This document shows, piece after piece, positions 10,678 to 32,880 of a stretch of 64,000 nucleotides of DNA. How positions within the stretch are numbered: the first letter of the stretch is position 1; every line of letters begins with the position of its first letter. This stretch comes from Ruegeria sp. HKCCD4315 (lineage in GTDB: Bacteria; Pseudomonadota; Alphaproteobacteria; Rhodobacterales; Rhodobacteraceae): NCBI RefSeq assembly GCF_013112245.1, contig NZ_WVRN01000002.1, positions 682,001 through 746,000 of the forward strand, written 5' to 3'. A model generated the notes under the pieces. It worked only from the letters and a program-made list of their open reading frames with translations, had not been told where the DNA came from and did no database searches. The position numbers and the translations under genes are program-made.

Positions 10678-10731
10678 TATAGTATCATTTTTTTTGATGA
10701 ACTGTCGAAGATATAGTATTTGAAATGATAT
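10678..10731. promoter_or_regulatory. Candidate LysR binding repeats
   Basis: The 97-bp divergent gap holds a direct repeat TATAGTAT at 10678-10685 and 10712-10719, 34 bases (about three helical turns) apart. The second copy is followed by an ATTT/AAAT-type palindrome ending at 10731. Placement suits an autoregulatory site abutting the LysR start plus an activator site for the operon. Confidence 0.5.
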
Positions 10732-10771
10732 GCCGGTCAAGGCAGGCTTCCGCACATCTATAGGGGGCCGA

Positions 10772-13152: not shown

Positions 13153-13204
13153 GAACAAGCTGATGAGAAACATCGGCGTTTCAAAATCCACTAGGGAGAA
13201 AACG

Positions 13205-14182: not shown

Positions 14183-14193
14183 CCTTTCGATTT

Positions 14194-14221
14194 GGGCGGC
14201 GGTTCATCCGGCCGCCCTTTT
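14194..14221 (+). terminator. Intra-operon attenuating hairpin after dctP
   Basis: GGGCGGC and GCCGCCC arms around a 10-base loop are followed by TTTT, 12 bases after the dctP stop. Such hairpins usually give partial termination or protect the 3' end, keeping binding-protein levels above membrane-subunit levels. Confidence 0.75.
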
Positions 14222-14250
14222 CGCATCCAATCAAAAACAGCGGGGACAGT

Positions 14251-14784
14251 ATGGCGGTTTTGCGAGGGCTTCGGTCCGTACTCGACTTCATCTATCTGGC
14301 GGCAGGGGTTTTAGCGGCACTCAGCCTGATCGCCATTCTGTTGCTGATCGTCGTGCAGATGCTTGCCCGCTGGACCGGTGAAGTGTTTCCCGGAGCACCC
14401 GACTATGCCGGTTACGCGATGGCCGCAGCATCTTTTCTGGCTTTTGCCAATGCACTGAACCGGGGCAGTCATATCCGGGTTTCCATCCTTCTGAACGCCG
14501 TTCCGGATGGGGTAAGGCGTATTCTGGAGGTCTGGTGCTTCGCCATAGGCACCGCTGTCATGTGGTATTTTTGCTGGTACGCATATCGCTTTGTCTATTG
14601 GAGCTGGAAGTTCAACGACATTAGCCAAGGCCAGGACCGAACTGCCCTTTGGATCCCACAATCCGCGATGCTGTTAGGCGCGATCATTCTGGCCATTGCA
14701 CTGACTGATCATTTAATCCACGTGCTTTTCAAGGGCGAACACCGCATCGTCCGCGATCTCGCCGATCAGAGCCACGGAGAGTAA
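14251..14784 (+). CDS. dctQ: TRAP transporter small permease (DctQ family)
   Basis: Small integral membrane subunit, 177 aa, with four hydrophobic segments near residues 10-35, 50-70, 90-115 and 130-155. Family features include the loop AAASFLAFANALNRGSHIRVSILL. It lies between dctP and dctM, with a 3-base gap to dctM. Its partners are the flanking large permease and binding protein. Confidence 0.9.
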   Translation: MAVLRGLRSVLDFIYLAAGVLAALSLIAILLLIVVQMLARWTGEVFPGAPDYAGYAMAAASFLAFANALNRGSHIRVSILLNAVPDGVRRILEVWCFAIGTAVMWYFCWYAYRFVYWSWKFNDISQGQDRTALWIPQSAMLLGAIILAIALTDHLIHVLFKGEHRIVRDLADQSHGE

Positions 14785-14787
14785 ATC

Positions 14788-16101: not shown

Positions 16102-16108
16102 GGCGGTT

Positions 16109-17050
16109 TTGAACCCGCTTCATCTGGCCGCGCGCCATGGACCTTATGTTCTGATCGGCGGATTGGCAGCAGGTCTTCTGTTGCCATCTCTGGCGGAACC
16201 AATGCGAGATCTGCTGGCCCCTTTGGTCGTTCTGTTGCTGTTCGTGACTGTGCTGAGGATGGACCCCAAAGCCATCGTTGGGTCATTGAGCGACCTGCCC
16301 AAAGTCGCCCTTACAGTTGTCGGATTTCAGCTGGTGACGCCGATGATCGTCATAGCATTTGGATATGCCTGTGGGTGGACCGGAACGCCAGTGCTGCTGT
16401 GCCTGCTGATCATGACGGCGGCCCCGTCTATTTCAGGCAGCCCGAATATGTGCATGATGATGGGTCACGCACCAGAACACGCGATGCGGCTGATGGTTGT
16501 CAGCACAGCTCTGCTGCCTTTGACCGCACTGCCCATTTTCCTGTTCATGCCCGCACTTGGCGATATTCAGGCGGTTTTAGAGGCTGGCTTGCGTCTTTCA
16601 CTTACAATTTTAGGTGCAACCGGTGCAGCCATATTCGTACGAAAGACAGTCCTGCGCGCGCCTTCGCAATCCACTTTGCTAAGTCTTGAAGGATTGGGAA
16701 CGCTTACGCTGGCTATATTTGTTATTGGCCTGATGCCGTCGGTCAGCGCAACAGCGTTGGAGGATCCGGCTTTGGCTGCATTCTGGATCGCCTTTGCCTG
16801 TCTGGCCAACTTTGGCGCACAGATTGTCATGTTTCAATTGACGCGAAGCAGGCTTCCCGCGGCGCGGGCAGCGGCAGTTTCGTTGATCGCTGGTAACCGA
16901 AACATCGCGATCTTTTTTGTAGCCCTGCCGCCCGAGGTGACTGCGCCAATCATGGCCTTCATCGGCGCCTATCAGATACCTATGTACCTCACGCCCATGA
17001 TCATGCGGCGTTTTTACGGTCGCGGAACCCCTGATGGCCGTTCGACGTAA
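16109..17050 (+). CDS. Bile acid:sodium symporter-like (BASS/AEC-type) membrane transporter
   Basis: A polytopic membrane protein of 313 aa with about nine to ten hydrophobic segments. The discontinuous helix-type motif TAAPSISGSPNMCMMMG and the related ISLIAGNRNIAIFF-type segment resemble BASS/arsenite-permease-like carriers. The TTG at 16109 follows GGATAAGGCGG; a later ATG is possible. It sits 7 bases after dctM, so it is the last gene of the six-gene operon. It may export a product or provide a second uptake route. The substrate is unknown. Confidence 0.75.
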   Translation: MNPLHLAARHGPYVLIGGLAAGLLLPSLAEPMRDLLAPLVVLLLFVTVLRMDPKAIVGSLSDLPKVALTVVGFQLVTPMIVIAFGYACGWTGTPVLLCLLIMTAAPSISGSPNMCMMMGHAPEHAMRLMVVSTALLPLTALPIFLFMPALGDIQAVLEAGLRLSLTILGATGAAIFVRKTVLRAPSQSTLLSLEGLGTLTLAIFVIGLMPSVSATALEDPALAAFWIAFACLANFGAQIVMFQLTRSRLPAARAAAVSLIAGNRNIAIFFVALPPEVTAPIMAFIGAYQIPMYLTPMIMRRFYGRGTPDGRST

Positions 17051-17238
17051 AGGCTGACCAAACGCGCAGAATCCTAGGATCGGCCCGGCGAACACCCCAA
17101 TCTAATGCAAAAAGAACGATTTTGTTGAAGGTCAACACAAGTACGCGCGTCGCTTCCGGCGCAATGCCAGAACCCGTGTTAACCTTCCACGCCGGGGTAT
17201 CAGCCAAGACTAACCCGCATAGATCGATCGGGGAGAGC
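17051..17238. repeat. Convergent spacer with imperfect inverted repeat
   Basis: This 188-base gap between convergent genes has no supported gene. It holds an imperfect 16-base inverted repeat, 17123-17138 against 17176-17191, matching at about 13 of 16 positions around a 37-base spacer. It might fold as a large stem-loop terminator, but no T-run follows. Confidence 0.3.
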
Positions 17239-18909
17239 TCAGTCTTTTTGCGGTGCCGTGAACAGGTCTTTGCGCAAGGTCATCAACGCACTTGGGTCAA
17301 TTTTGGCCTGAATAACCGTTGTTTCATTCGACGCGATGGCCTTTTGCAACGCCGGGCCCATGCCACCGGGCCCATCGACCCATATACCTTTCCCACCACA
17401 TAGTTCGGCAAATTTGTCAAAACGGGGCGATTGAATTTCTGAACCCAGCAAACGGCCTCCGTAAAACTCTTGCTGGTAAGCCTTTTCCGCTCCCCAAGCC
17501 TGGTTGTCCAAAACAACGATGGTGATTGGCAGATTGTGCTGAATGGCAGTCTGAATCTCGATCATTGTATAGCCGACGGCGCCATCACCCATCACAGCCA
17601 CGGCAGGGCGATCTGGCGTAGCGGCCTTGGCTCCGATTGCGGCAGCGAGACCAAAGCCAACAAGACCAAAATCCAAAGGTGTGATCAGAGACATCGGTGC
17701 ATAGTGGGCCAGCCGGTCTGCGGCTTGCAGGCAAGTGTTGCCCGTGTCCAGCGTTACGATGGCGTTTTCGGGCAAGGTCGCGCGGATTTCGGCCAGAGCA
17801 CGGCGCGGGTGCATAGGCAAACTGTCTAGCTCTGCCTCAGTCGCGCGCACGGCTTCGAGGTCGGACATGCCAGACCGAAACGCTTCGCGCCACGGATCGC
17901 AATCCGGGCGCGTTGCTGTATCTGTCAAAGCTTCGGCAGTCAGGCGGGCATCGCCCTGTGCCGCGATCTCGGCGGGGAAATAACGACCAACTGCTGCACC
18001 TTCGATATCGACATGGGCAATCCGGGTATCAGCCCCGACATAGTCGTTGGAATGAAAGGTCGAGTTGAACCCAAGGCGGGCTCCGAGGACCACCATGACA
18101 TCCGCCTCGCGCGTCAGCCTGCTGGCGACCACATTGCCGCGTGGCCCGGCTTGCCCTGCAAACCACGGGTGGCCGTGGGGCATGACGTCGGCATGGCCGG
18201 TTGAGGCGACGACAGGAACGTCAAGCTTTTCGGCCAACGCCGTCAAAGCGTCGCGCCCGTCCCCCCATTTGAAGCCCCCACCGGCAAAGATCACCGGCCT
18301 TTCGGCCCCAGATAGCAGCTTGGCAATGGCGGCGACGTCCGACGGTGCGGCAGGGCCGGGGCGCGCGATGTTCACCCGGGTCGGCTCAAAAGCTGGTATC
18401 TCAGCGGCAAACAAGTCACGCGGGACATGCAGCACCACTGGTCCGCGTCGGCCAGTGTTGGCCAACCGGATGGCGTCTTCCAGCATCGGTGCCAGCCGCG
18501 CCGGATCTGTCACCATGACCGAACGCTTGGAAATAGGTGCAAACAACGCGACCTGATCTATTTCCTGAAACGTATCCTTGCATTGATCGGCACGGGTGAT
18601 CGCTCCGGCAATCACCACAAGTGGGGAATAGGCCAGTTGCGCCTCGGCCACTGCTGTCACGATGTTGACCACGCCGGGCCCCGCTTGCGCGCCCAGAACC
18701 ACACCAGGTTTGCCCGTCATCCGTGCCCAAGCATCAGCCATATGGCCCGCAGCACGTTCGTCCCGCGCTCCGACATATGCGATCTGACCGCCTTTATACA
18801 TGGCATCGTAGAGTTCCAGCATCGAGCCGCCCAACAGGCCGAAAACGGTATCGATGCCGTTGGCTTTCAGAACGCGATAGACGGCTTCTCCGCCGTTGAT
18901 GGTGGTCAT
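17239..18909 (-). CDS. ThDP-dependent enzyme, acetolactate-synthase-like family
   Basis: A 556-residue ThDP enzyme and the last gene of the MttB-led operon. The PYR domain has the conserved Glu in VGARDERAAGHMADAWARMTG. The PP domain has GDGAVGYTMIEIQTAIQHNLPITIVVLDNQAW, the ThDP/Mg site. The ATG at 18909 has GGAG upstream and lies 2 bases after the amidase stop. No small regulatory subunit is present, so a catabolic decarboxylase or carboligase is more likely than biosynthetic acetolactate synthase. Placement suggests it acts on an oxo-acid released by the upstream amidase, transaminase or oxidases. Confidence 0.85.
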   Translation of the reverse strand: MTTINGGEAVYRVLKANGIDTVFGLLGGSMLELYDAMYKGGQIAYVGARDERAAGHMADAWARMTGKPGVVLGAQAGPGVVNIVTAVAEAQLAYSPLVVIAGAITRADQCKDTFQEIDQVALFAPISKRSVMVTDPARLAPMLEDAIRLANTGRRGPVVLHVPRDLFAAEIPAFEPTRVNIARPGPAAPSDVAAIAKLLSGAERPVIFAGGGFKWGDGRDALTALAEKLDVPVVASTGHADVMPHGHPWFAGQAGPRGNVVASRLTREADVMVVLGARLGFNSTFHSNDYVGADTRIAHVDIEGAAVGRYFPAEIAAQGDARLTAEALTDTATRPDCDPWREAFRSGMSDLEAVRATEAELDSLPMHPRRALAEIRATLPENAIVTLDTGNTCLQAADRLAHYAPMSLITPLDFGLVGFGLAAAIGAKAATPDRPAVAVMGDGAVGYTMIEIQTAIQHNLPITIVVLDNQAWGAEKAYQQEFYGGRLLGSEIQSPRFDKFAELCGGKGIWVDGPGGMGPALQKAIASNETTVIQAKIDPSALMTLRKDLFTAPQKD

Positions 18910-18911
18910 GT

Positions 18912-20279
18912 TCAGTCTCCGGAAATTTGGCGTTCAATCTGGCGGGCAAAGCGCAGCAGCCGCGCGTCCGACCCTTTCGGACCGGTGATGTGAAGACCCA
19001 CGGGCATACCGTCGGAGGACTGCCCCATGGGGATGGAAATCGATGGAAGCTCTAACGTCGGTGTCAGAGTCACTGTACGCCAGTCTTCGGTGATTTCCCC
19101 GTCTCGCAGGTCAGCGCTGAACGGCAATCCAGTGGCGGTGGGCCAAAGGGCAAAATCATAGTGGGCGAAGAATGTAGCAACAGAGTCCCAGACATGACGG
19201 CGTGTCGTCTGATAGGCGATCAAACCGGCAAAGCTTTGCCGTTCTCCCTGTGCGCAAGCCGTGCGATAGCTGTCTGTGGCCAGCGTCATGTCGGGATCGA
19301 GCGCCGCGCGAATTTGCAGGGCACATTGGCCCCGAATGATGTCGCCATATGCAAGCAGCGGCGCAAGGTCCGGGGCTGTGTTTTCATCGACATGCCAGCC
19401 CAAAGCGCGGAAAACATCTGCGATTGGTGCCAATGCCGCCTGAACCGATGGCTCAACACTTGACCCGAAGGGCGAAAGGCTCAACGCCACGCGGCCCGCA
19501 GTCAGCGGGGTATCAATCTCAACCGGGGCCGGGTAAGCGCCGGTGTATGCCAATGGCTGGTTGGGCGTCGGGCCTTGCATCACACTCAGCATCAAAGCGA
19601 GGTCCGAAACCGTACGCGCCATCGGGCATGGCACGGACAAACCGTCAAACGGGGCCGGGTTTGGATCCATGGGCACCAAACCCGATGTTGGCCGCATACC
19701 TACTACACCGCACCATGCAGCAGGTGTACGGGCACTGCCCCCAAGATCCGAGCCATCAGCAAGGGCAACCATGTTGGCCGCCAACGCGGCAGCCGCGCCA
19801 CCAGAACTGCCCGCAACCGTCTTTTCAGGGTTCAATGGATTGCGCGTCGTGCCCGATACAAAGTTCGTGGTCTGGCCAGAAAATGTGAACTCGGGCGTGT
19901 TTGTCTTGCCAACGATCACGGCACCTGCCGCCCTCAGACGCGCGACGTGTAGCGCGTCACTGGACGGGACATGATCAGAAAAGCTTCTTGATCCATGCGT
20001 TGTGCGCAGACCGGCGGTATCAAAACAGTCTTTGATCGCGACCGGCAACCCGTGCAGTGGCCCTGCGAACTGCCCCCGCGCGGCCATCCTGTCCAGTTCA
20101 TCAGCACGGGCGCTGGCAGCGTCCCAATCCAGCGTGACAAAGGCGTTCACACCGGCTGGATCGCCTTCGATACACGCGCGATAGGCTGCCAAAACCTCCG
20201 AGCTGCTCAGGGTTCCTTTACGCAGGTCTCCCGCAAGCTCGATGGCCGACTTCTGAGTGATATCTATCGGTTGCAGCAA
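18912..20279 (-). CDS. Amidase (amidase-signature family)
   Basis: A 455-residue amidase-signature hydrolase with the full Ser-cisSer-Lys triad: Lys83 (PVAIKD), cis-Ser158 (AGSSGG) and nucleophile Ser182 (GSDLGGSAR), with the family's 24-residue Ser-Ser spacing. The TTG at 20279 is supported by GAGGA seven bases upstream, inside the end of the preceding gene. It hydrolyses a carboxamide and releases ammonia or an amine. It sits three bases after the second DMGDH-like gene and two before the ThDP enzyme, in the six-gene operon. Confidence 0.92.
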   Translation of the reverse strand: MLQPIDITQKSAIELAGDLRKGTLSSSEVLAAYRACIEGDPAGVNAFVTLDWDAASARADELDRMAARGQFAGPLHGLPVAIKDCFDTAGLRTTHGSRSFSDHVPSSDALHVARLRAAGAVIVGKTNTPEFTFSGQTTNFVSGTTRNPLNPEKTVAGSSGGAAAALAANMVALADGSDLGGSARTPAAWCGVVGMRPTSGLVPMDPNPAPFDGLSVPCPMARTVSDLALMLSVMQGPTPNQPLAYTGAYPAPVEIDTPLTAGRVALSLSPFGSSVEPSVQAALAPIADVFRALGWHVDENTAPDLAPLLAYGDIIRGQCALQIRAALDPDMTLATDSYRTACAQGERQSFAGLIAYQTTRRHVWDSVATFFAHYDFALWPTATGLPFSADLRDGEITEDWRTVTLTPTLELPSISIPMGQSSDGMPVGLHITGPKGSDARLLRFARQIERQISGD

Positions 20280-20282
20280 GAG

Positions 20283-22694
20283 TTATTCCTCGGATCGGGG
20301 TCGCAAATTCTGCGGATCGAAGAGCGCATCTTGATGTACCGTAACCGGGATGTCACGATTTAGAATTCGAACGCTGAGGCCCGTTTGCGGGGTACCCTTG
20401 CGAACAAACAACCACCCCAGGGACTTGCCGATCGTATAGCCATACCCACCCGATGTGGTCAGGCCCACAGGCCGATCGTTCAGCAACACCGGTTCGCCAC
20501 CATGAATGTCGATGTCTTCTGAGTGCAGCTCTGCATAGAATAGCTGCCATGCCGGATCTCGGCTGAGCAGCGCATTGCGGCCCAGAAAATCGCGTCCTTC
20601 GCTCACGACAAAGCGTTCGAGACCGACGTCAAGCGGGCCGACATCCGTGGTCAGATCCCCGCTGGCGCGATAAGCCTTTTCCATACGCATCCCGTTGAAC
20701 GCGTAAGAACCCAGATCCGTCAAACCGTGTTTGGACCCGGCTTCGAAAAGCGCGTCGTAGATTGCACCAATCTGATCCAGCGGCGCGTGCAATTCCCAGC
20801 CCAATTCGCCGACAAACGAAACGCGTAGAGCATAGCAAGGAATTCCTGCAACGCGGATTTCCTGCCCAGATAACCAAGGGAAAGCGCGATTGGACAGATC
20901 AACGTCTGTCAGTTCAGACAGGATACGGCGGGTCGCGGGGCCTGACAGTGCCAGCATCCCCCAATCTGCCGAGCGGTTGATCATCGTCACATCCTCGCCG
21001 GGTCGGATGTGGGACTTGATCCAATCGAAATCCGGTGTGGCGCGGGCAATGGGGGAACCTGTGAAGAACCGGTCTTCGGCCATGCGCCAGATCGTGATTT
21101 CTGTCTCGAACCTTCCCTGCGCCGTCAGCAAATGGTTCAGGCTCATCCGCCCGTCTTTCGAAGGTATTCGGTTGGCCGACAGCCGGTCCAGCAAAGCGCC
21201 CGCATCCTTGCCCGAGATCTCGAACTGGGCAAAAGCGCAGAGATCGATGACACCGGCGGCATTGCGCGTTGCTTTTGCCTCGGCCGTCGCGTTTGCATGC
21301 CACGGCTGATGACCCCAGCCGATCTGTTCTGCTTCGCCTACTCCACCGAAATAGCGCGGACGCTCCCAACCGGCGACTTCTCCGAAAACTGCACCCTTGG
21401 CGGCAAGGCGGTCATACAGTGGGTGTTTTTTCAGCGGCCGAAGGCTGTGGAACTGCTTACCCGGGCAAGGCGTGTCATGGCGGCGCATGAACTCGTCCTT
21501 GGTGCGCTCGACAATGAAGTTGTCCGAGGCGAAATCTCCGTATCGGCGCGGGTCGAAACCGCGGGTGTTGATTTCGGCTTCACCATGCACCATCCAATCG
21601 GCCAGCACTTTGCCCGCGCCGCCGCCCCAGGCCAGCCCGATGGACGAGCCGCAGGACAACCAGACGTTCGGCGCACCCGATGGCCCGACCAGCATTCCGC
21701 CATCAGGTGTGTGCGTGATTGCCCCACGCACGACGCGTTTGATGCCAAGATCAGCCAGAATTGGCATTTTGTCGAAAGCCACCATCAGGAAATCGCCAAT
21801 CGAGTCGTAATCGGCCTGGAACAGCTCATTCTCCGCCGCCCAAGGCGCGCCTTCGGGCATTTCCCAGACCGTTGGGCAGACATGGCCTTCGTAAATTCCG
21901 ATCAAGCCGGATTTCTGCTCCTGCCGGATGTAACCGCCAAAGGCATTGTCCCGCATCACGGGCAATTCCGGACGGTCGGCGAACTGTGGTACGGTGTCCG
22001 TCACAAGATAGTGGTGAAGGCACGACACCGAGGGGATTTTCAGCCCGAACCACTCCCCCACCTGATTGGCGTAAGACCCAGCGGCAATCACCACATGTTC
22101 GGCCAGCACATCGCCTTTTTCGGTGCGCAACAGCCACATATCGCCTTTGCGGGACGCCCCGATCATCCGGTTGTGCCGTTCAATCCGGGCGCCGCGCGAC
22201 CGGGTTGCAGCAGCCAGCGCCATGGTCACGCTTGAGGGGTCGATATGACCATCCTCGTAAGTGCGCACCGCAGCTTTAACGTCGTCGACTTTGTAGAAGG
22301 GATTAACCTGCGCCACCTCTTCCGGGCCGATCAGATCCATTGGCAGATCCAACAGCTTGCCCACGCCCATGATCGACTTCATCCAATCGACTTCATCGTC
22401 GGTGGTGGCAATCCGGATGCCGCCGACTTCGTGCCAACCTATGCTCTGTCCGGTTTCGGCCTCGACCCGTTTATAGGTTTCGATGGAGGTTTTGTTGATC
22501 CACCCCATCAGGCGACTGCCTACCGCATGGGCAATCTGTCCGGCCGCGTGCCAAGTGGAACCGCTGGTCAATTCGGCCTTTTCAAAAAGGATCGTGTCAG
22601 TCCAGCCATTCTCGGCCAGTTGAAACTGCGCGGCCACGCCCATGATACCGCCGCCAATGATCGCCACTTGGGTGGATTGGATCGTGTCGCTCAT
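20283..22694 (-). CDS. Dimethylglycine/sarcosine-dehydrogenase-like flavoprotein (FAD + GCV_T)
   Basis: An 803-residue two-part enzyme. The N-terminal DAO-type FAD domain has IIGGGIMG (13-19), and the SGSTWHAAG segment's His49 aligns with the covalent FAD-linking His of dimethylglycine and sarcosine dehydrogenases. From about residue 430 an aminomethyltransferase-type half follows (FAO_M, GCV_T; SFVGELGWELH, GSYAFNGMRMEKAYRASGDLTTD), which binds folate in relatives. It is expected to oxidise an N-methyl amine and transfer the C1 unit to tetrahydrofolate. ATG at 22694 overlaps the upstream paralogue's stop by 4 bases. The next gene is the amidase. Confidence 0.9.
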   Translation of the reverse strand: MSDTIQSTQVAIIGGGIMGVAAQFQLAENGWTDTILFEKAELTSGSTWHAAGQIAHAVGSRLMGWINKTSIETYKRVEAETGQSIGWHEVGGIRIATTDDEVDWMKSIMGVGKLLDLPMDLIGPEEVAQVNPFYKVDDVKAAVRTYEDGHIDPSSVTMALAAATRSRGARIERHNRMIGASRKGDMWLLRTEKGDVLAEHVVIAAGSYANQVGEWFGLKIPSVSCLHHYLVTDTVPQFADRPELPVMRDNAFGGYIRQEQKSGLIGIYEGHVCPTVWEMPEGAPWAAENELFQADYDSIGDFLMVAFDKMPILADLGIKRVVRGAITHTPDGGMLVGPSGAPNVWLSCGSSIGLAWGGGAGKVLADWMVHGEAEINTRGFDPRRYGDFASDNFIVERTKDEFMRRHDTPCPGKQFHSLRPLKKHPLYDRLAAKGAVFGEVAGWERPRYFGGVGEAEQIGWGHQPWHANATAEAKATRNAAGVIDLCAFAQFEISGKDAGALLDRLSANRIPSKDGRMSLNHLLTAQGRFETEITIWRMAEDRFFTGSPIARATPDFDWIKSHIRPGEDVTMINRSADWGMLALSGPATRRILSELTDVDLSNRAFPWLSGQEIRVAGIPCYALRVSFVGELGWELHAPLDQIGAIYDALFEAGSKHGLTDLGSYAFNGMRMEKAYRASGDLTTDVGPLDVGLERFVVSEGRDFLGRNALLSRDPAWQLFYAELHSEDIDIHGGEPVLLNDRPVGLTTSGGYGYTIGKSLGWLFVRKGTPQTGLSVRILNRDIPVTVHQDALFDPQNLRPRSEE

Positions 22695-25090
22695 GCAAAA
22701 GCTACCTTTACGGGTTTGAGAGAGGCTTTGGCTGTGTAACGGGCGCACGCGATTTCGACTTCGAACCCGTCCAAAACGTCTTGGGTTTCAAGCAGGCCCA
22801 AAGGCGCGTTGATCAGGCCAAGCGCCACGGAACGACCAAACCGGTAGCTCCATGCGGCTGAGGTGATCTGCCCCACGACCTTGCCGTCAAAGTAAATGGG
22901 TTCATCATGCAGCGGGATCGCGTCAGGATCGTCGAACAGGATCGACACGATTTGCCGTTCGGGACTGTGATCGCGCAAGGCGTCTTCGCCCACAAAACCC
23001 GTGCCCATGGCGCAAAACGCACCTAGCCCGGCTTCAAGCGGCGTGGTGCCCGGTGTGAGTTCGTGACCGAATGCCCGAAAACCGCTTTCGATGCGCAAAG
23101 ATCCACTTGCGTAAAGACCCGCATGGGTTGCACCTGCGGTGACCAGCGCCTCATAGGCGGCCATGGCCATGTCGGCAGGGATGTAAAGCTCAAAGCCTTC
23201 TTCCCCGGTAAAGCTCAGCCGACCTGCCCAACCTCGGGCCAAACCAATCTCGACGGGTGCAAAGCAGAACCGCTTGAGGTCCGGGACAGCCGCGTTTGTC
23301 GTGGCCTGAAGCACGTCTCGGGCCCGTGCACCAGCAAGGCCCAGAATGGCATACCCGCTGGTAACGTCCGTGAACTCCGCACGGTAATCACTTCTTGTGT
23401 CCCGCATCCGCTGCATCACACGAACGGTTTCATTGGCCCCGACGATCAGCAGAAAAGTTTCTTGCCCATGCCGCTGAACGGTCAGATCGCTTTCCACGCC
23501 GCCCTTCGCATTCAGGATCTGGGTATACGCAATGCGCCCCTCGGGCACGTCCATCTGCGCGGCACAGAGCCGGTTCAGAAAGGCACAGGCATCCGGCCCC
23601 TGCACCATGATTTTACCAAAGGCGCTTTGATCCAGAATGGCAGCGCCCGATCGGCAGGTTTCGACCTCTTGCCCGACCTGTTCGCGCCATGCAGGCGCGC
23701 CGAAGGTCAGTGGCAGATGGGCAGGTTCGCCCCCGAAATGCACGGCACGTTCCCAACCGCCCCGCGCTTCGAACCGCGCCCCGGCGGCGACGAGACCGGC
23801 ATGGATTGGCGAACGACGCTGACCCCTTGCGGTCTCCATCGAACGACCGGGAAACGGGTTGTCATAGTGGCGTCCAAGAACTTCAGGAATACGGGCTTCC
23901 AACGCGCCCAGAACGTTCATTTCGGGGCTGAAGCGGCGAATGTCGGCCTCGTTCAACTCCATCGTGGGTTCTCCGGCGATGATCCATTCTGCCATGGCTT
24001 TGCCTGCCCCACCTGCCAGAGCAATTCCGGTCGAATTCATCCCTCCCATCAGGAACAGCCCCGGCACTTCGGGGCTTTCGCCCAGCATGAATTGGCTGTC
24101 GAGCGTGAAGCTTTCCGGGCCGTTCAGCAACATCCGAACCTCGGCCTTTTCCAGTGCCGGAATGCGGCGCAGTGCGTTTTCCATCATCGGCATGAAATGA
24201 TCCCAATCCTCGTCCAGCAGATCGAACGAGAAATCGGCGGGCAGCCGATCCAGCGGCAGGCCTTTGGCATGGCGTTCGAACGAGCCAACAAGCAGCCCTT
24301 CGACATCGTCGCGGGCATAGAGAAACGCATCCTGATCGTTCAGCGTTGGCAGGTGCGCGCCTTTGCCAAGGGCCTGAACCTCGGGCAAGGGCTTGGTCAG
24401 AATGTAGAAATGTTCACAGGCATAAAGCGGCATGTGCGCCCCGGCCATGGCCGCGACCTCACGCGACCAAAGCCCACAGGCGATCACAACCTCGTCGGCC
24501 TCGATCACATGGTCACCGACCTCGACGCCCGATATCCGCCCGCCTATCTTTTGCAGCCCAGTCACGCGGGTATCTTCAAAGATCTGAACCCCTCGTGCCC
24601 GTGCACCCTTGGACAGCGCCAGAGCCACGTCGGAGGGGTTGACCCGTCCGTCCGACGGCGACCAAACCGCGCCGATCACGTCATCGACCTCGATCAGCGG
24701 CCACAAGTCCTTGGCACGGGACGCATCCACAACCTCGGCCTCAAGCCCAAAGGCGCGGCCAAGCGAGACCTGACGTTTGATATTCGTCAGTCGGTCCTGG
24801 TTGGTGGCCAGCGTCAGCGAGCCGGTTTGGGTCCATCCCGTGGCTTGCCCGGTTTCACGTTCCAGTTCACCATAAAGGTCGATGGAATAGTTGATCAGCT
24901 TGGTCAGTGTCGCCGACGGGCGCAAGCGCCGCACCAGACCAGCCGCATGCCACGTCGTGCCGCTGGTCAGTTTCGAGCGTTCCAAAACGACAATATCTTT
25001 CCGACCTTCGCGGGCCAAATGATAGGCAATCGAACAGCCGATGACGCCGCCACCAATGATGACGGTGCGGGCATGGGTGGGCAATGTCAT
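22691..25090 (-). CDS. Dimethylglycine-dehydrogenase-like flavoprotein (FAD + GCV_T)
   Basis: A 799-residue paralogue of the next gene with the same architecture. The FAD motif is GGGVIG (13-18). LTSGTTWHAAG carries the presumed flavin-linking His48. The C-terminal aminomethyltransferase-like region contains LSFTGEEGFELYIPADM and SGSLRIESGFRAFGHELTPGTTPLEAGL, close to DMGDH/GcvT folate-site motifs. It probably demethylates a different N-methyl amine, or a different methylation state, from its partner. Four-base ATGA overlaps join it to the aminotransferase upstream and the second flavoprotein downstream. Confidence 0.9.
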   Translation of the reverse strand: MTLPTHARTVIIGGGVIGCSIAYHLAREGRKDIVVLERSKLTSGTTWHAAGLVRRLRPSATLTKLINYSIDLYGELERETGQATGWTQTGSLTLATNQDRLTNIKRQVSLGRAFGLEAEVVDASRAKDLWPLIEVDDVIGAVWSPSDGRVNPSDVALALSKGARARGVQIFEDTRVTGLQKIGGRISGVEVGDHVIEADEVVIACGLWSREVAAMAGAHMPLYACEHFYILTKPLPEVQALGKGAHLPTLNDQDAFLYARDDVEGLLVGSFERHAKGLPLDRLPADFSFDLLDEDWDHFMPMMENALRRIPALEKAEVRMLLNGPESFTLDSQFMLGESPEVPGLFLMGGMNSTGIALAGGAGKAMAEWIIAGEPTMELNEADIRRFSPEMNVLGALEARIPEVLGRHYDNPFPGRSMETARGQRRSPIHAGLVAAGARFEARGGWERAVHFGGEPAHLPLTFGAPAWREQVGQEVETCRSGAAILDQSAFGKIMVQGPDACAFLNRLCAAQMDVPEGRIAYTQILNAKGGVESDLTVQRHGQETFLLIVGANETVRVMQRMRDTRSDYRAEFTDVTSGYAILGLAGARARDVLQATTNAAVPDLKRFCFAPVEIGLARGWAGRLSFTGEEGFELYIPADMAMAAYEALVTAGATHAGLYASGSLRIESGFRAFGHELTPGTTPLEAGLGAFCAMGTGFVGEDALRDHSPERQIVSILFDDPDAIPLHDEPIYFDGKVVGQITSAAWSYRFGRSVALGLINAPLGLLETQDVLDGFEVEIACARYTAKASLKPVKVAFA

Positions 25091-26379
25091 GACAACACTC
25101 CGTCGCGGACCATATCCGAAATAGTGTCGCGGAAAAGTGCGACCGCCTCGTCAATCAGGCCGGGTGTATGCGGCAGGCCAGTTACGCAGGAGGTGAAAGA
25201 CATGAAATCCACGCCTCGCTCTAACAACCCGTCACGCAAGCTTTTGACGACAGCGGGCGGCGTTTTTCGGATTTTTGCGGCATCCAGCCCTTCAATGGAT
25301 CGTCCACCGAAATAGAGGTGGCAGGTCGAGCTGTCGCCATAAGCCAATGCCTGCACGTCCAGTTCAATGAAGGCTGCGTTGAAGCCATCCCGCAGACGCG
25401 CGGCCATTGCATCGGCATGGGCCTGAACGTCGCCGGTCGAAAGAATTTCCATCGCCTTAACCGCCCCCGCAGCCACCAAGGGGGCCGCGTTGAAAGTGCC
25501 TTTGTGTCCGACCGGAGGCGATAGCCCTTCACGAGTCTCGCCGGGGCTGAGCAAATCCATGACGTGAGCCCGACCAACAACGGCCCCGCCCGGCAGACCA
25601 CCAGTGACGATCTTGGCCAATGTTGTCAGATCCGGCGTCACCCCATCTCGCGCCTGACGGCCGCCCGGCGACCAGCGTAGACCCGTGATTACCTCATCAA
25701 AAACAAGCACATGGCCCGTTCTTTCGGTCAAGGCTCGCACCCCCTGCAGAAAACCGTCCGGCAGCGGGACCGAGCCATAATTTGCGCCGGAGGCTTCGAC
25801 AAAGACGGTTCCGATCTGTGGATCGCTGTCCAGCAGGTCGGCAACGGCGTCCAGATCCGGCGGGGATACCACCGTCAGGTCGGTCACGGCCTGCGGTATA
25901 CCCAGACTCGGCGCTGTGTTGGTGCCGGGTTTGGCACCTTTCATCAACATGTCATGCCAGCCGTGGAAATGGCCGTCGATACGCAGCACCTTGTCACGGC
26001 CCGAGTACGCCCGACCCAGCCGCAGGGCCAGCATTGTTGACTCTGTACCAGACCCGGTGAACCGCACACGGTCGGCAGAGGGAAACAGGCGTGCCAGCCA
26101 TTCGGCCCATTCAACCTCAAGCGGATGACAGTCTGCGGTGTAAGGCATCCTCTCCATCTGACGGGCCACTGCTTCAGCAATCTCAGGGTGGGCATGACCC
26201 AGAATCTGACTGGCCGCGCCTAGTTTGAAATCGATGTAACGCTTGCCGTCCACATCCCATTTCTCGGCCCCTTTGGCGCGGTCGAAATAGATCGGATACG
26301 GGGTTTTGTAACGCAACTCGTGACTGACGCCACCAGGCATAACCGCACGGGCGCGGGCGCTTAGGTTTTGACTTTTCAT
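25087..26379 (-). CDS. Class III aminotransferase (glutamate-1-semialdehyde aminomutase-like)
   Basis: PLP enzyme of fold type I, 430 aa, from the ATG at 26379, which overlaps the MttB stop (ATGA). FTGSGTESTMLALRLGRAYSGR binds PLP phosphate, HFHGWHD stacks the ring, Asp228 in VFDEV pairs with the pyridine nitrogen, and Lys256 in LAKIVTGG forms the Schiff base. Sequence resembles GSA aminomutase (PGGVSHELR start), but the operon context indicates catabolic transamination or amine transfer rather than haem synthesis. The substrate is unknown. Confidence 0.9.
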   Translation of the reverse strand: MKSQNLSARARAVMPGGVSHELRYKTPYPIYFDRAKGAEKWDVDGKRYIDFKLGAASQILGHAHPEIAEAVARQMERMPYTADCHPLEVEWAEWLARLFPSADRVRFTGSGTESTMLALRLGRAYSGRDKVLRIDGHFHGWHDMLMKGAKPGTNTAPSLGIPQAVTDLTVVSPPDLDAVADLLDSDPQIGTVFVEASGANYGSVPLPDGFLQGVRALTERTGHVLVFDEVITGLRWSPGGRQARDGVTPDLTTLAKIVTGGLPGGAVVGRAHVMDLLSPGETREGLSPPVGHKGTFNAAPLVAAGAVKAMEILSTGDVQAHADAMAARLRDGFNAAFIELDVQALAYGDSSTCHLYFGGRSIEGLDAAKIRKTPPAVVKSLRDGLLERGVDFMSFTSCVTGLPHTPGLIDEAVALFRDTISDMVRDGVLS

Positions 26380-27920
26380 GAGGATCTGCCGGTTTGCTGT
26401 CGTGTCAGACGGATGTCGAAACACGTGCGCAACGCGCGGTCAACGTCGTCGGGAATGTGCTGCGGGAAGTGATTGGACAAAATCTCGCGCGCTTTTTCCC
26501 GAGCAACGTCACCGACAGGCTGAGAGCCGTCTTCCTGCCATTCCCGCGGCGTCCTCCGGTCACCGATTTCGGGATAGAAATAGTCTGATTTCATCCTGTT
26601 GAATGTATGCTGTTCACCCAAATAATGCCCCTCGCCCCGGCAAACGTCGGCGATTACGTCGGCAGCGATGTTTTCAGGCGTGGCTTCGATCCCGCGCAAA
26701 GTGCGTAGGATATTCCCCAGCATGTCATTGTCACTGACATAAGCCGCATGGCTAACGCCCAGCAAGCTGGCCTGCATCCCGGCCGCCTGGGTGACAATGT
26801 TCGAACCCGCGTGTGCAGCCATGGTGACAGCAAGCGATTTCTCGGCCCCGTATTGCGCATCCAAACACTTGGCATCGGTAATGCCCGCAATAGAGGAGGT
26901 TGGCAGGTCGAAATGCCGCCCCATCTGTGCAGCGCCCGCCATGAGGATCGCCTGCTCCCCTCCGCCGCCGCACATAGAGCCGGTGCGCAGATCCGCAACC
27001 AACGGTTTTGGTGCAAAGATCGCCTTGACCTCTGGGTCGACAAGACGGGCGAACACCAGCCCTGCCAGCGTTTCCGCAACGGCCTGAACCAATGAACCGG
27101 CAATGGTTGCCGGGCTGGTAGCACCGGCCTGTCCAGCGCTGATCAATTGAACCGGGAACCCGGCCAGAATTGCGGCTTCGAGAACTTCACACGCTTCTTC
27201 GGCAAAGCGCATGGGTGGCACGACGTGGCACACCATCACAGTCAAGAAAGGACGCGCGCGAAAGGCCTCTTCACTGCCGGCAATGGCATAACACAGCTGT
27301 GCGATCGCGGGCACATTGTCGGGCTCGGTGATCGAGATCGACACATGCTTGGACGTCCCCGCCAGACATGCATAAGCCGTGTTGAGATCCATAACCGCGT
27401 TGTCTTCGATATCCCGGGCAACCACTGAACGGCTGAAATGGTGGATATTGTCCATCTGGTCGACAATGCGGGCCGCGTCATACAGGTCAGCCAGTGTCGA
27501 GTCCCGATAGACGCCCGTGTCCAGATCAAAAACACCGGGGGCCGCGCCGCCACTGGACATGTGCGCGCGGGCCTGACTGATATCCAGATCATGTTCAGGA
27601 ACTTGACCGCAAAGGCTAAAATCACGGTTTGCTTCGCTGATCGCCTGACGCACCAAAGCGCGGGGGAACTGCAAACGGTGGTCATCTGTCAATGACCCAC
27701 CCGCAGCAACCACCTTTTCGATCATCGAAGGTATAGCCTGACTCAGGCCAAGCGTTTCCAGAAGGGTCAGCGCCGTTTCTTCAACCAGCGCGACCTCTTG
27801 GGGAGAAAGCGGCTTGAAACGCCCGCCACAGATACCTGGCCAAACAGGCGGGTTCGACTCGGGTTCTGTTGTTTGGGTGAGGCGCTGTTTGCGGCCACGC
27901 CTGCGCACTGTAGCGGTCAT
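26376..27920 (-). CDS. Trimethylamine methyltransferase (MttB) superfamily protein, non-pyrrolysine
   Basis: A 514-residue MttB-superfamily protein and the first gene of the operon. The reading frame is continuous, with no in-frame amber codon, so it belongs to the non-pyrrolysine group that includes glycine-betaine methyltransferase MtgB. Typical segments are DIEDNAVMDLNTAYACLAGTSKH, MVCHVVPPMRFAEEACEVLE and EQHTFNRMKSDYFYPEIGDR. A basic tail (TATVRRRGRKQR) precedes the barrel. Relatives methylate a corrinoid protein from a quaternary amine, but no corrinoid carrier gene was recognised here. A four-base overlap ties it to the aminotransferase. Confidence 0.9.
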   Translation of the reverse strand: MTATVRRRGRKQRLTQTTEPESNPPVWPGICGGRFKPLSPQEVALVEETALTLLETLGLSQAIPSMIEKVVAAGGSLTDDHRLQFPRALVRQAISEANRDFSLCGQVPEHDLDISQARAHMSSGGAAPGVFDLDTGVYRDSTLADLYDAARIVDQMDNIHHFSRSVVARDIEDNAVMDLNTAYACLAGTSKHVSISITEPDNVPAIAQLCYAIAGSEEAFRARPFLTVMVCHVVPPMRFAEEACEVLEAAILAGFPVQLISAGQAGATSPATIAGSLVQAVAETLAGLVFARLVDPEVKAIFAPKPLVADLRTGSMCGGGGEQAILMAGAAQMGRHFDLPTSSIAGITDAKCLDAQYGAEKSLAVTMAAHAGSNIVTQAAGMQASLLGVSHAAYVSDNDMLGNILRTLRGIEATPENIAADVIADVCRGEGHYLGEQHTFNRMKSDYFYPEIGDRRTPREWQEDGSQPVGDVAREKAREILSNHFPQHIPDDVDRALRTCFDIRLTRQQTGRSS

Positions 27921-28027
27921 TTTACATGAGTCCAGATTACCTACTTGCCATGATTACAGCCCAAACAGCAGTTTACAAATGGTCTTTCCTCAGCGACTAG
28001 TAAGTTTCACTCATCATTAGGACGGTT
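27921..28027. promoter_or_regulatory. Divergent promoter region, MttB operon / GcvA-like LysR
   Basis: This 107-base gap must hold both promoters. An imperfect CTAGT...ATTAG inverted repeat near 27997-28020 is the only operator-like element I can see. It is a weak call. Confidence 0.35.
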
Positions 28028-28906
28028 ATGCTCCCCTCTCTTTCCGCACTACGCGCTTTCGATGCAGCCGCGAAAACCGGCAGTTTTCGCGCCGCCGCCG
28101 AGCATCTTGTGGTGACGCCAACGGCCATCAGCCACCACATCCGTGGACTGGAAGATCAACTGGGCACCCTATTGTTTGAACGCGTGGGGCGCGAGGTCAG
28201 ACTAACGGAGGATGGAACACGGCTGGCCGAAACGACTGGACGGGCGTTTGGGATGCTGGAAGACACGGTTGGAGCCTTGCGCAGAACATCACGCAAGGTT
28301 GTGCGATTGGCCGCCGGACCCATCTTAACGGCCCGGTGGCTGATGCCACGCATCAGCGACCTTTGGCAGAGTTTCCCCGAGGTCGAGCTTGAGGTCGTGC
28401 CTTCGTATCGTCCGCGGATGGCGGACCAAACCCACGCAGATATTGTTCTGAGCTGGCATCGATTGGCGGACATGCCGCGCGGCTCACTCAAACTGCTGGA
28501 ACTTCGACCTGTCGCCATAGCAAGCGCGCAGTACATCGACCAATATGGGCCCATCGATGCGCCTGAAGATCTATTGAACAAACCCATCCTGCACCAACGC
28601 AATCATTGGGGCTGGTTGGACTGGTTTGCCGCGATGAACGTGCAGCCGGGGTCCCCCCTGATGGGCGTTGTGTTTGAAGATGCAAACATTCTGTTACGCG
28701 GGGCTGCCGAAGGACAAGGCGCAGTGGTGGGCTGGCTGCCACTGATTGATCAAGATCTCAGGGAGGGGCGGATTTTGCGCCTGTTCGACGAAGATATCAA
28801 ACCCACACACGGCTATTTTGTCGAGGCACAGGACGGAAGCCGGGACAAGCGTGAAGTCCGGGACGTTATTGAGTGGCTGAGGTCCCAGAGCTGCGAACCT
28901 GGCTAA
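28028..28906 (+). CDS. LysR-family regulator, GcvA-like
   Basis: A 292-residue LysR regulator starting MLPSLSALRAFDAAAKTGSFRAAAEHLVVTPTAISHHIRGLE, the HTH signature of the GcvA subgroup that often controls glycine, amine or amino-acid catabolic genes. The effector domain includes RILRLFDEDIKPTHGYFVEAQDG near the C terminus. It is divergent from the six-gene MttB-led operon, its likely target. The next gene is convergent. The 112-base gap to it (28907-29018) has a short CGCTG/CAGCG hairpin but no convincing terminator. Confidence 0.9.
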   Translation: MLPSLSALRAFDAAAKTGSFRAAAEHLVVTPTAISHHIRGLEDQLGTLLFERVGREVRLTEDGTRLAETTGRAFGMLEDTVGALRRTSRKVVRLAAGPILTARWLMPRISDLWQSFPEVELEVVPSYRPRMADQTHADIVLSWHRLADMPRGSLKLLELRPVAIASAQYIDQYGPIDAPEDLLNKPILHQRNHWGWLDWFAAMNVQPGSPLMGVVFEDANILLRGAAEGQGAVVGWLPLIDQDLREGRILRLFDEDIKPTHGYFVEAQDGSRDKREVRDVIEWLRSQSCEPG

Positions 28907-29018
28907 AAACATTGGCCATTGAACGCAAAAGCACGCCGCTGAAGGCAGCGCGCTTAATTTGTCTCGTCGGACACAGATCGGTTTTGACCTGGCGCGTCCT
29001 TCTAAGCCTATGTAAAGC

Positions 29019-31436
29019 TTAGCTTCGCAGTCTGCTGCCCATGGGGTCAAACGGCGCCTCTGACAGAACACGCCCTTTGTGCGCCTTGCCAATCACCTGA
29101 ATCACCACCTCATCTCCGGGTTGCGCCACTTCGGGGTTGCGGAAGCCAATGGCCAGTGATTTCCCGACCGAATAGCCATACGCCCCGGATGTGACCCGGC
29201 CAACAGGCGTGCCGTCGGGTGTAAAAATCGGCTCACTGCCGGTGGCATCTGCGTCCTCGGTCACGTCCAGTTCGAAGACCGTCAGAACTTCTCGTGGGGC
29301 GTTGTCCTTTACGGAAAGGTAGGCGTCCTTGTGAAGGAAATCCTTGTCGAGCTTGATCAGACCGGTCAGCCCAACCTCTTGCGGCCAGTATTCCTGGCTG
29401 TATTCCCGACCCCAGGATCCATAGCCCTTTTCGATGCGCAACGACCCCAGCGCACGCCCGCCAACGGGACCGCCACCGCAGTCTTTGGCGGCCTCAAGCA
29501 ATGCGGTGTAAAGCGCGACCTGATCAGCCTCGGCGCAGTGCAGCTCCCAACCCAGATCACCTGAAAAACTGACGCGGATGGCCACACAGTCCACACCTGC
29601 AACGGTGATTTTCTGGGATCGCATGAAACGGAACGCTTCATTGGACAGATCGGCATTGGTCAGACGTGCCAATGCCTCACGCGATTTCGGACCTGCGACG
29701 TTGAACCCGGCAATGCGGTCTGTCGCGACCTCCAGCGTGGTGCCCTCGGGCATCTCGACCATCTGGAAAAAGCGTTGATGATAGCGCTCGGCCATACCCG
29801 ATCCGATCATCATGTATTCGTCTTCGGCCAGCTTGGTAATGGTAAAGTCCCCTGCCACGCCACCGCGAACCGAGATCAGAGGCGTCAGGCAACTGCGCCC
29901 GACTTCGGTTGGCACACGGTTGGCCACTAGACGGTCCAGCCAGTCGTAAGCACCCGGTCCTTTGATCACGTAATTTGCAAAGTTCGAGATGTCGATGACG
30001 CCCACGCTGTCGCGCAGCATCTGCACCTCGCGACCAACCGGATCGAACCAATTTTGGCGGGTAAAACCGGTTGTCTCTTGGGCGCCGGGTTCATCCGCGA
30101 ACCACAGCGGGTGTTCCCAACCGCAGTTCAGACCAAAGACACAGCCCATCTGTTTTTGCATCTCAAAGGCCGGGCGCACACGGGCCGGACGGCCAGCGCT
30201 GCGTTCTTCATTGGGGAAGTGGATCTTGAAACGGTGCGTATAGGCGTCTTCCACCCGCGCTTTGGTGAATTTCTTGTCGGCCCAGTCGCCAAACCGTGCC
30301 AGATCCCAAGCGAACATGTCATATTGCGGCTCGCCCTCGATCATCCACTGCGCTGCCAGCAAGCCCAACCCACCTGATTGCGAAAAGCCCGGGATCAGAC
30401 CGCCACAGAGGAAATAATTCTTCAATTCTGGCACAGGCCCCCACAGCATGTTGGCATCGGGCGACCAGATCATCGGCCCGTTGATCACCCGCTTGACCCC
30501 GGCTGTTGCTGCAACCGGTACGCGTTCGGTCGCGCGGATCACGTTTTCCATGATCCGGTCCAAATCGTCAGGGAACAGATCGTGGGCAAAATCCAACGGT
30601 GTGCCCTCTTCGGCCCAGAACTTCATATCCTTTTCATAGGCACCAATAAGAAGCCCGTTGCCTTCCTGCCGGAAGTAATACTCGCCATCCCGGTCGGCGA
30701 TCGAAGGTAAGCGACGGCCCAGATTGGCGACTTCATCGATGGTTTCGGTCACGAAATACTGATGTTCGGTCGGTTGCAGCGGCAGCGTCAGCCCTGCCAG
30801 AGCCGCCACTTCGCGACCCCAAAGACCAGATGCATTGACCACCCATTGTGTGTGGATATCGCCTTTTGGTGTCCGAACAATCCAGCTGCCGTCCTGTTGC
30901 TGCTCGGTCCCTGTTACGGGGCAGAACCGCTCGATTGTTGCGCCCATGGCACGTGCCCCGGCAGCATAAGCATGGGGCACGCCCGAAGGGTCCACATTGC
31001 CGCCATCGGGTTCGTACATGATGCAACGGATGTCATCGAACTGAGCCAGCGGGTGAAGCTCTTTTGCTTCTTCGCGGCTGACCTCGTGAAAATTCAGGCC
31101 GTAAAAACGCGCTTTGGCCTCTTGCAGGCGCAATTGCTGCTCGCGTTCTTCGGTTTGTGCCAAGTACAGCGAGCCCGGCTGGAACACGCCGCAGCTTTGG
31201 CCGGTTTCCTTCTCCAGCTCTTTATACAGGTTCATCGTATAGTGCTGGATTCGCGTGATGTTGTTGTTGTCGTGCAGCCCGTGAATATTGGCCGCCGCGT
31301 GCCAGGTCGAGCCACTGGTCAGTTCATCACGCTCCAGCAGGATCGAGTCCGTCCAGCCGAGTTTGGCAAGGTGATACAAAATCGACGTACCGGCGAGACC
31401 GCCACCGATGACAACAGCTTGTGCGTGGGTTTTCAT
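29019..31436 (-). CDS. Dimethylglycine/sarcosine-dehydrogenase-like flavoprotein (FAD + GCV_T)
   Basis: The third protein of this architecture, 805 aa. FAD motif GGGLAG (11-16). LTSGSTWHAAAN has the presumed flavin-linking His46. The C-terminal aminomethyltransferase-like half contains VSFSGDLGWELHCAEADQ and GSLRIEKGYGSWGREYSQEYWPQEVGL. It probably oxidises an N-methylated amino acid with C1 transfer to folate. It lies 28 bases after a class V aminotransferase on the same strand and forms a two-gene unit separate from the MttB operon. Which methyl amine it uses is unknown. Confidence 0.9.
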   Translation of the reverse strand: MKTHAQAVVIGGGLAGTSILYHLAKLGWTDSILLERDELTSGSTWHAAANIHGLHDNNNITRIQHYTMNLYKELEKETGQSCGVFQPGSLYLAQTEEREQQLRLQEAKARFYGLNFHEVSREEAKELHPLAQFDDIRCIMYEPDGGNVDPSGVPHAYAAGARAMGATIERFCPVTGTEQQQDGSWIVRTPKGDIHTQWVVNASGLWGREVAALAGLTLPLQPTEHQYFVTETIDEVANLGRRLPSIADRDGEYYFRQEGNGLLIGAYEKDMKFWAEEGTPLDFAHDLFPDDLDRIMENVIRATERVPVAATAGVKRVINGPMIWSPDANMLWGPVPELKNYFLCGGLIPGFSQSGGLGLLAAQWMIEGEPQYDMFAWDLARFGDWADKKFTKARVEDAYTHRFKIHFPNEERSAGRPARVRPAFEMQKQMGCVFGLNCGWEHPLWFADEPGAQETTGFTRQNWFDPVGREVQMLRDSVGVIDISNFANYVIKGPGAYDWLDRLVANRVPTEVGRSCLTPLISVRGGVAGDFTITKLAEDEYMMIGSGMAERYHQRFFQMVEMPEGTTLEVATDRIAGFNVAGPKSREALARLTNADLSNEAFRFMRSQKITVAGVDCVAIRVSFSGDLGWELHCAEADQVALYTALLEAAKDCGGGPVGGRALGSLRIEKGYGSWGREYSQEYWPQEVGLTGLIKLDKDFLHKDAYLSVKDNAPREVLTVFELDVTEDADATGSEPIFTPDGTPVGRVTSGAYGYSVGKSLAIGFRNPEVAQPGDEVVIQVIGKAHKGRVLSEAPFDPMGSRLRS

Positions 31437-32715: not shown

Positions 32716-32880
32716 GACACGCGATGCTTTGTGTTGATGGTGCACGGTATGTCGCGGACCCTATGACGGTTCCACCTGCAGGACATGCAAAAAAAACGGA
32801 TGCAATGCAGTCGAATTTTCTGCACCAAAGGCAAACACCGATTGGCTGGCTGGGGTGCAGTCGGGGTATCGAACGCACAG

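Follow-up and report, generated by a model that had tools for sequence, protein, structure and literature searches.

The DNA analysed here, a stretch of 64,000 nucleotides from Ruegeria sp. HKCCD4315 that is called the window throughout, carries six closely packed genes encoding a methyltransferase of the MttB superfamily, a class-III aminotransferase (AT), two flavoproteins resembling dimethylglycine dehydrogenase (DMGDH-A and DMGDH-B), an amidase and a thiamine diphosphate (ThDP) enzyme, with the gene of a LysR-type regulator facing away from them (Table 1). The window corresponds to C2:682001-746000, where C2 is a contig of 897,372 bases in a genome of 4.74 Mb that is assembled in four contigs. 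We propose that the six genes form a LysR-controlled catabolic operon for a quaternary (trimethylammonium) amine, a reading of the pathway class to which we assign a probability of roughly 0.6 and whose reactions are those that the protein families would predict.

Table 1. Position of the proposed operon, its regulator gene and adjoining features in the window
Feature	Position	Strand	Remarks
MttB-superfamily methyltransferase, non-pyrrolysine	27920..26376	-	514 aa; PF06253
Class-III aminotransferase (AT), glutamate-1-semialdehyde aminomutase (GSAM) / D-phenylglycine aminotransferase-like	26379..25087	-	430 aa; Aminotran_3
DMGDH-like flavoprotein A	25090..22691	-	799 aa; DAO, FAO_M, GCV_T, GCV_T_C
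DMGDH-like flavoprotein B	22694..20283	-	803 aa; DAO, FAO_M, GCV_T, GCV_T_C
Amidase, accessory	20279..18912	-	455 aa; TTG start; PF01425
ThDP enzyme, sister clade of Xsc	18909..17239	-	556 aa; three TPP domains
LysR-type regulator gene, GcvA-like, divergent from operon	28028..28906	+	HTH_1, LysR_substrate
Conserved dyad and TTTGTAAA-like element between LysR and MttB genes; candidate operator and promoter	27972..28015	.	alignment of 26 regions
Third DMGDH-like gene	29019-31436	-	beyond LysR gene
Class-V aminotransferase gene	31465-32745	-	beyond LysR gene

Results

The six genes had been recognized in an earlier note on this DNA, which described them as intact and as joined by three ATGA overlaps and then by gaps of 3 and 2 bases; our coordinates and domain assignments, the latter supported by NCBIfam and Pfam, agree with that description. 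The overlaps are located at the MttB/AT, AT/DMGDH-A and DMGDH-A/DMGDH-B junctions, and the gaps precede the amidase and ThDP genes. All six reading frames are open, and the ratio of non-synonymous to synonymous substitution rates (dN/dS), calculated with a Nei-Gojobori script, is low in comparison with two related loci (0.048-0.14 against L041 and 0.046-0.097 against L115) as well as for the five genes common to the window and Ruegeria pomeroyi (0.052-0.177), so that the six genes are under purifying selection and the claim of intactness holds. The TTG start of the amidase gene is supported by an ATG at the equivalent position in L115 and by a GAGGA-type ribosome-binding site, which precedes the gene in the window, L041, L078 and L115. 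From the junction spacing and the conserved gene order, co-transcription from the LysR-MttB intergenic region appears probable. A pattern scan of positions 16900-29100 returned 3 promoter-like sites against a mean of 4.2 in shuffled sequences, and a scan for terminator patterns likewise did not rise above the shuffles.

The LysR gene, which the earlier note did not mention, is kept beside MttB in divergent orientation in most loci. The best NCBIfam match of its product is the GcvA subfamily, with 211 bits against a cut-off of 288. In an alignment of 26 intergenic regions, a dyad of the form AGT-N3/5-CT(C/T)A is present in 21, where shuffled sequences give 1.3 on average, and a TTTGTAAA-like element in 25, where they give 6.5. 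These counts can be read as conservation only, since the patterns were picked after inspection and the 26 sequences are related; the dyad may nevertheless represent the operator.

The note had set conservation of the gene order in relatives as a test of the operon. Among 37 genomes of the same genus, 16, the window's own included, contain an MttB orthologue with at least 79% identity, and in 14 of the 15 other loci, viewed in stretches of 20 kb, the order LysR, MttB, AT, DMGDH-A, DMGDH-B, ThDP is found, the amidase left aside. In the one deviating locus, L053, which is located at the end of a contig, MttB and DMGDH-A are present with no recognized AT between them. In a second collection of 54 named loci, which overlaps with the same-genus loci in genomes and is therefore counted separately, 39 encode an MttB with 63-92% identity and were taken as the orthologous set. 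MttB, AT, DMGDH-A, DMGDH-B and ThDP follow each other in this order in 29 of these 39, with DMGDH-A in two pieces in L103, and the gene order is thus conserved in both collections. In seven others (L100, L108, L109, L110, L111, L112 and L114, of which L109 is cut), the AT and both DMGDHs are replaced as a block by one protein of the Old Yellow Enzyme (OYE) family encoded behind MttB. The remaining loci are L084, which is without the AT, and L081 and L094, which are cut by contig ends. An eighth OYE-type cluster, L153, lies outside the set of 39 (MttB 54%, OYE 53% and ThDP 58% identical). Because the AT and both DMGDHs are exchanged together for a single flavoprotein, MttB and the ThDP enzyme are the constant parts of the unit and the middle block is its exchangeable part.

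The carriers of the operon are labelled as Ruegeria, Shimia, Leisingera, Tropicibacter, Pelagimonas, Halocynthiibacter and other Rhodobacteraceae; in addition, there are metagenome-assembled genomes with the labels Rhizobiaceae, Rhodospirillales, Alphaproteobacteria, Gammaproteobacteria or Thiotrichales, which may reflect binning. An aldehyde dehydrogenase (ALDH) resembling betaine aldehyde dehydrogenase is encoded between MttB and AT in 11 of the 39 loci, and four OYE-type loci have a more distant ALDH nearby. In 12 of the 39, a gene for a TcuA-like flavoprotein is found in the vicinity, and the genes flanking the operon vary between loci. The TcuA-like gene after ThDP is in two pieces in L093 (10506-11960) and in L150. 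In L104 (Halocynthiibacter namhaensis), and in this locus only, cobalamin genes with CobU and CobS domains lie beyond LysR at 5829-8614.

The operon is also present on the megaplasmid of R. pomeroyi DSS-3, where LysR is SPO_RS21405, MttB SPO_RS21400, AT SPO_RS21395, the flavoproteins SPO_RS21390 and SPO_RS21385, and the ThDP enzyme SPO_RS21380. From MttB to ThDP, these proteins are 83, 61, 86, 86 and 88% identical to those of the window, and in the absence of an amidase gene they form a five-gene core. Two TcuA-like pieces lie behind the ThDP gene; the PLSDB table, from which pseudogenes are omitted, has no gene entry at that place. Counting in order from SPOA0318, which we take to be the methionine gamma-lyase gene, the five genes would correspond to the old tags SPOA0313 to SPOA0309. 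Under this mapping, one of the operon flavoproteins would be SPOA0310, which appears with the label 'Glycine' among the genes that were higher in late diatom co-culture (PMC9723723, Table 1).

The MttB of the operon matches PF06253 with 469.8 bits (cut-off 25) and the pyrrolysine equivalog TIGR02369 with 325 bits, which is below the cut-off of 525, and in a HMMER alignment its Ile350 falls on Pyl334 of Methanosarcina barkeri MttB (position as given in PMC9842639). On these two grounds, a pyrrolysine-containing MttB was rejected. With the glycine betaine methyltransferase MtgB the protein shares 177 bits over residues 35-499 (465 residues). It is one of 13 proteins with a PF06253 domain encoded on C1 and C2, seven of which score 562-789 bits and six, the operon MttB among them, 334.8-469.4 bits. 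A full-length DMGDH-like gene occurs in the examined stretch of six of these 13 genes (20 kb each, the window as a whole). The corrinoid protein and the pterin methyltransferase that MttB would need are encoded elsewhere in the genome, which has one PF02607 corrinoid protein, free-standing on another contig than the operon and adjoining a DUF1638 gene, one RACo-type (RamA-type) activator and two pterin-binding proteins, either of which may be the MtgD-type enzyme and one of which is presumably folP. The MetH reactivation domain PF02965 had no match in this genome and matched in 7 of 14 control genomes; most MtgBCD genomes lack it, though not every one. Within the genus, a single PF02607 match was obtained for 53 of 54 genomes and two matches for the remaining one, and the number of MttB homologues is 4 to 16 matches per genome (n=37). 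Several MttB homologues per single corrinoid protein are thus the rule in these genomes, and the operon links one such homologue with a complete set of downstream genes. It has been reported that loss of mtgC or mtgD in R. pomeroyi stops both methionine synthesis and the use of glycine betaine, and the authors suggest that other methylated compounds are handled by additional pfam06253 proteins (PMC12478193). Because neither the operon nor the examined stretches around the MttB genes contain a corrinoid gene, we can only infer that the operon MttB uses the shared MtgC-type hub.

Both flavoproteins have the full architecture of DMGDH and dimethylglycine oxidase (DMGO) in one chain, and their best PDB match is dimethylglycine dehydrogenase, with 415.5 bits for DMGDH-A and 500 bits for DMGDH-B. 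They contain the WHAAG histidine motif of the DMGDH/DMGO family at residues 47 and 48, respectively, and are about 30% identical to each other, as measured on the R. pomeroyi copies. The AT matches Aminotran_3 with 171.5 bits and, in the PDB, best D-phenylglycine aminotransferase (257 bits); it stays below the hemL (glutamate-1-semialdehyde aminomutase) equivalog TIGR00713, with 272.7 against 527.3 bits. The OYE-family protein of the variant loci has about 650 aa and matches histamine dehydrogenase with 192 bits and trimethylamine dehydrogenase with 174 bits. The amidase (PF01425, 302.4 bits) is encoded in nine of the 39 named loci, always directly upstream of ThDP and once in an OYE-type locus, and is an accessory rather than a core component.

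Among curated families, two models of sulfoacetaldehyde acetyltransferase (Xsc) come nearest to the ThDP enzyme, which is below the cut-offs of both (396.8/676.4 bits for TIGR03457 and 407.5/620 bits for PRK07525). A true Xsc with 927 bits is encoded in the same genome, beside genes for Pta and a molybdopterin oxidoreductase. In trees that included 14 Xsc sequences and four other ThDP paralogues, a small taxon sample, the operon-type enzymes form a clade that is sister to Xsc and lies outside the Xsc clade. Of 167 columns that are invariant in Xsc, 15 are common to at least 95% of 19 operon-type enzymes and to at most one of the four other paralogues, and 31 are consistently different in the operon-type enzymes. 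The missed cut-offs, the changed columns, the separate clade and the true Xsc elsewhere in the genome led us to reject or downgrade the assignment of the enzyme as a true Xsc.

When 292 Rhodobacterales genomes were searched at E 1e-140, ThDP enzymes of this type were found in 21, in 12 of them at 82-100% identity and in nine at 44-47%. Eight of the latter (L175-L182; L174 is the one excepted) were read as longer stretches, and in all eight the genes for an ALDH, a luciferase-like monooxygenase, an AA_synth protein, an alpha/beta hydrolase and the ThDP enzyme follow in this order next to a divergent LysR gene, with a flavin reductase gene in five; the family assignments were run on the L178 proteins and one L175 protein. 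These clusters presumably resemble those of the trigonelline type, and PDB searches with the hydrolase and the monooxygenase gave no pointer to a substrate. Near the L175 cluster there are also genes for an MttB homologue (41%) and a DMGDH-like protein. Jointly, the two ThDP clades are sister to Xsc (support 0.999). Three positions set both of them apart from Xsc: 94, where H is replaced by Y or F; 112, with D instead of G; and 478, with Y instead of N. For these reasons we prefer a carbonyl substrate other than sulfoacetaldehyde, as far as this can be predicted from sequence.

Beyond the LysR gene lie a third DMGDH-like gene and a class-V aminotransferase gene. The former was rejected as a member of the operon, because, of 41 loci, only L078 and L113 have it in the neighbourhood. 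A second cluster of methylamine type on the plus strand (33980-42771) comprises genes for MmgE/PrpD, a DAO flavoprotein, a sarcosine-oxidase-alpha-like protein and a 2-hydroxyacid dehydrogenase, and includes a second MttB homologue (671.5 bits). It is followed on the minus strand (42804-48350) by nearly touching or overlapping genes for hydantoinase A and B, a class I/II aminotransferase and an arylmalonate-decarboxylase-like protein. Beyond the 3' end of the operon, positions 8099-17050 contain genes for another ThDP enzyme, a LysR regulator, an enolase-superfamily protein, a DAO flavoprotein and a TRAP transporter (DctP, DctQ and DctM), most of them on the strand opposite to the operon.

Discussion

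In the pathway that we propose, MttB would move the first methyl group of R-N+(CH3)3 to the shared MtgC-type corrinoid protein, and an MtgD-type pterin enzyme would pass the corrinoid-bound methyl group on to tetrahydrofolate. The two DMGDH-like flavoproteins would then remove the second and third methyl groups oxidatively and hand them to folate via their fused GcvT domains, the AT would remove the amino group to leave a carbonyl compound, and the ThDP enzyme would act on this carbonyl by C-C cleavage or decarboxylation. The amidase could provide an optional entry into the pathway when the substrate comes as an amide or is acylated. At the OYE-type loci, one flavoprotein would stand in for the oxidative demethylations and the transamination, perhaps by oxidative release of dimethylamine, although this reaction is a guess given that the nearest match of the protein is a dienoyl-CoA reductase. 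Either block, DMGDH-A, DMGDH-B and AT or the OYE-family protein, could turn the dimethylamine product of MttB into a carbonyl. The main comparative argument is that MttB and the ThDP enzyme are kept when the block between them is exchanged, which supports this logic of the pathway. As substrate class, betaines of the amino-acid type, which bear a carboxylate, would be likeliest, glycine betaine and carnitine excepted.

The earlier note had arrived at a similar sequence of reactions, and its MttB-type demethylation, two oxidative N-demethylations, transamination and ThDP-dependent step fit the gene order, the selective constraint and the corrinoid hub. Amide hydrolysis as a core step, which it had included, was rejected because the amidase is limited to nine of 39 loci and is absent from R. 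pomeroyi.

Several observations weigh against the proposed pathway or against its generality. A corrinoid gene was found neither in the operon nor in the stretches around the 13 MttB genes. The operon is not carried by 15 loci with an MttB of 40-45% identity (L116-L128, L130 and L131), and Roseovarius indicus (MttB 51%) and G037/L056 (MttB 48%) have one DMGDH-like gene only. The AT is missing in L084 and is less uniform than its neighbours, with 59-63% identity to the window's protein in 13 of 31 loci and 70-92% in 18, although the DMGDHs and ThDP enzymes of the loci with the 59-63% AT are 69-93% identical to those of the window. The best PDB match of the OYE-family protein is 2,4-dienoyl-CoA reductase (279 bits), and the ThDP enzyme misses the thresholds of its nearest curated families. 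The K/S/S residues of the amidase and the lysine of the AT were seen by eye, but regular expressions for both motifs gave no match, and the third DMGDH-like protein does not match the WHAAG pattern. Finally, the transporters vary from locus to locus.

Among other substrates, a sulfonate betaine, that is taurobetaine or lower N-methylated taurines, would be a special case of the same pathway logic: MttB and the DMGDHs would lead to taurine, the AT to sulfoacetaldehyde, and the ThDP enzyme, as a diverged second Xsc, to acetyl phosphate and sulfite. The proximity of the enzyme to the Xsc models and the 15 retained Xsc-invariant columns speak for this idea, as does the listing of SPOA0309, which by gene order maps to the ThDP enzyme, as sulphoacetaldehyde acetyltransferase in the 2014 reannotation (PMC4334477). 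We consider it unlikely, since both Xsc cut-offs are missed by more than 200 bits, 31 Xsc-invariant columns are consistently changed, the sister clade, in which three positions are replaced in the same way, is found in monooxygenase clusters, ALDH genes accompany many loci, and a full Xsc is encoded beside pta elsewhere in the genome. Somewhat less likely again is a role of the operon in the use of secondary or tertiary N-methyl amino acids, or their amides, with MttB having a different or auxiliary function that involves no corrinoid-dependent demethylation. The place of MttB among the six lower-scoring PF06253 proteins, the lack of a corrinoid gene near it and the amidase of the window operon would suit such a substrate; however, MttB leads the unit, is kept in the OYE-type loci too and aligns with glycine betaine methyltransferase over residues 35-499, and the genome does contain the hub genes.

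A redundant route for glycine betaine, choline or carnitine seems very improbable. MttB is distantly related to glycine betaine methyltransferase, and together with two DMGDH-like proteins it would suit glycine betaine, but we know of no place for the AT and the ThDP enzyme in the usual route through glycine. Moreover, the pfam06253 proteins reported as raised on glycine betaine, choline and carnitine in R. pomeroyi are SPO2108 and SPO2134 and not the megaplasmid protein, as far as the accessible part of that report goes (PMC12478193), and these three compounds were accordingly rejected or downgraded as substrates. Homarine was downgraded only; PMC13390433 describes Mgd as taking part in its catabolism.

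We thus favour the quaternary amine pathway described above, and tentatively suggest that it has not yet been described: MttB would attack an unrecognised marine betaine via the methionine-synthase hub, an exchangeable module would break the C-N bond, and a new ThDP family that is sister to Xsc would complete the breakdown of the skeleton. This possibility, at less than even odds, is less probable than the assignment of the pathway class. The MttB superfamily, the shared corrinoid hub and the DMGDH enzymes are already known, and what appears to be new is their joining with an AT and an Xsc-sister ThDP enzyme in a conserved operon. In the open-licence full-text literature, judged by titles and the openings of abstracts, this gene combination was not found as a described pathway, and single genes are mentioned. 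As the same ThDP superclade also ends the flavin-monooxygenase clusters (L175-L182), it may be a general finisher for the carbonyl fragments of N-methylated compounds. If the activity of the operon ThDP enzyme is new, it would add a branch beside Xsc and a new route to the turnover of methylated nitrogen in the sea. The operon is present in the laboratory model R. pomeroyi DSS-3, and its substrate is therefore directly testable.

Among known systems, the closest is MtgBCD with the split methionine synthase of R. pomeroyi DSS-3, which, as described in PMC12478193, likewise has a PF06253 enzyme, one free-standing corrinoid protein with DUF1638, a RamA-type activator and a pterin protein in a genome without MetH. 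Unlike in that system, the window MttB shares one operon with an AT, two DMGDHs and a ThDP enzyme, and its substrate is probably not glycine betaine. The non-pyrrolysine MttB proteins of anaerobes, MtgB (2QNE and 9YCE) and the Eubacterium set named in the same paper (PMC12478193), belong to the same superfamily and also have no pyrrolysine; in contrast to these, the setting in the window is aerobic and no corrinoid gene lies beside MttB. Dimethylglycine dehydrogenase (4PAB and 5L46) and dimethylglycine oxidase (1PJ5) show the same domain order and the WHAAG motif as the two flavoproteins, but the window has two different copies side by side. Xsc (TIGR03457) has WGAEK and the H/D/H residues at 239-247 in common with the ThDP enzyme, which is nonetheless set apart by its score below the cut-off, its own sister clade and the 31 changed columns. 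The monooxygenase clusters of other Rhodobacterales end, as the operon does, in an enzyme of this kind, from a sister clade with 44-47% identity to the window ThDP enzyme, but unlike the operon their shared core is without MttB, DMGDH and class-III AT.

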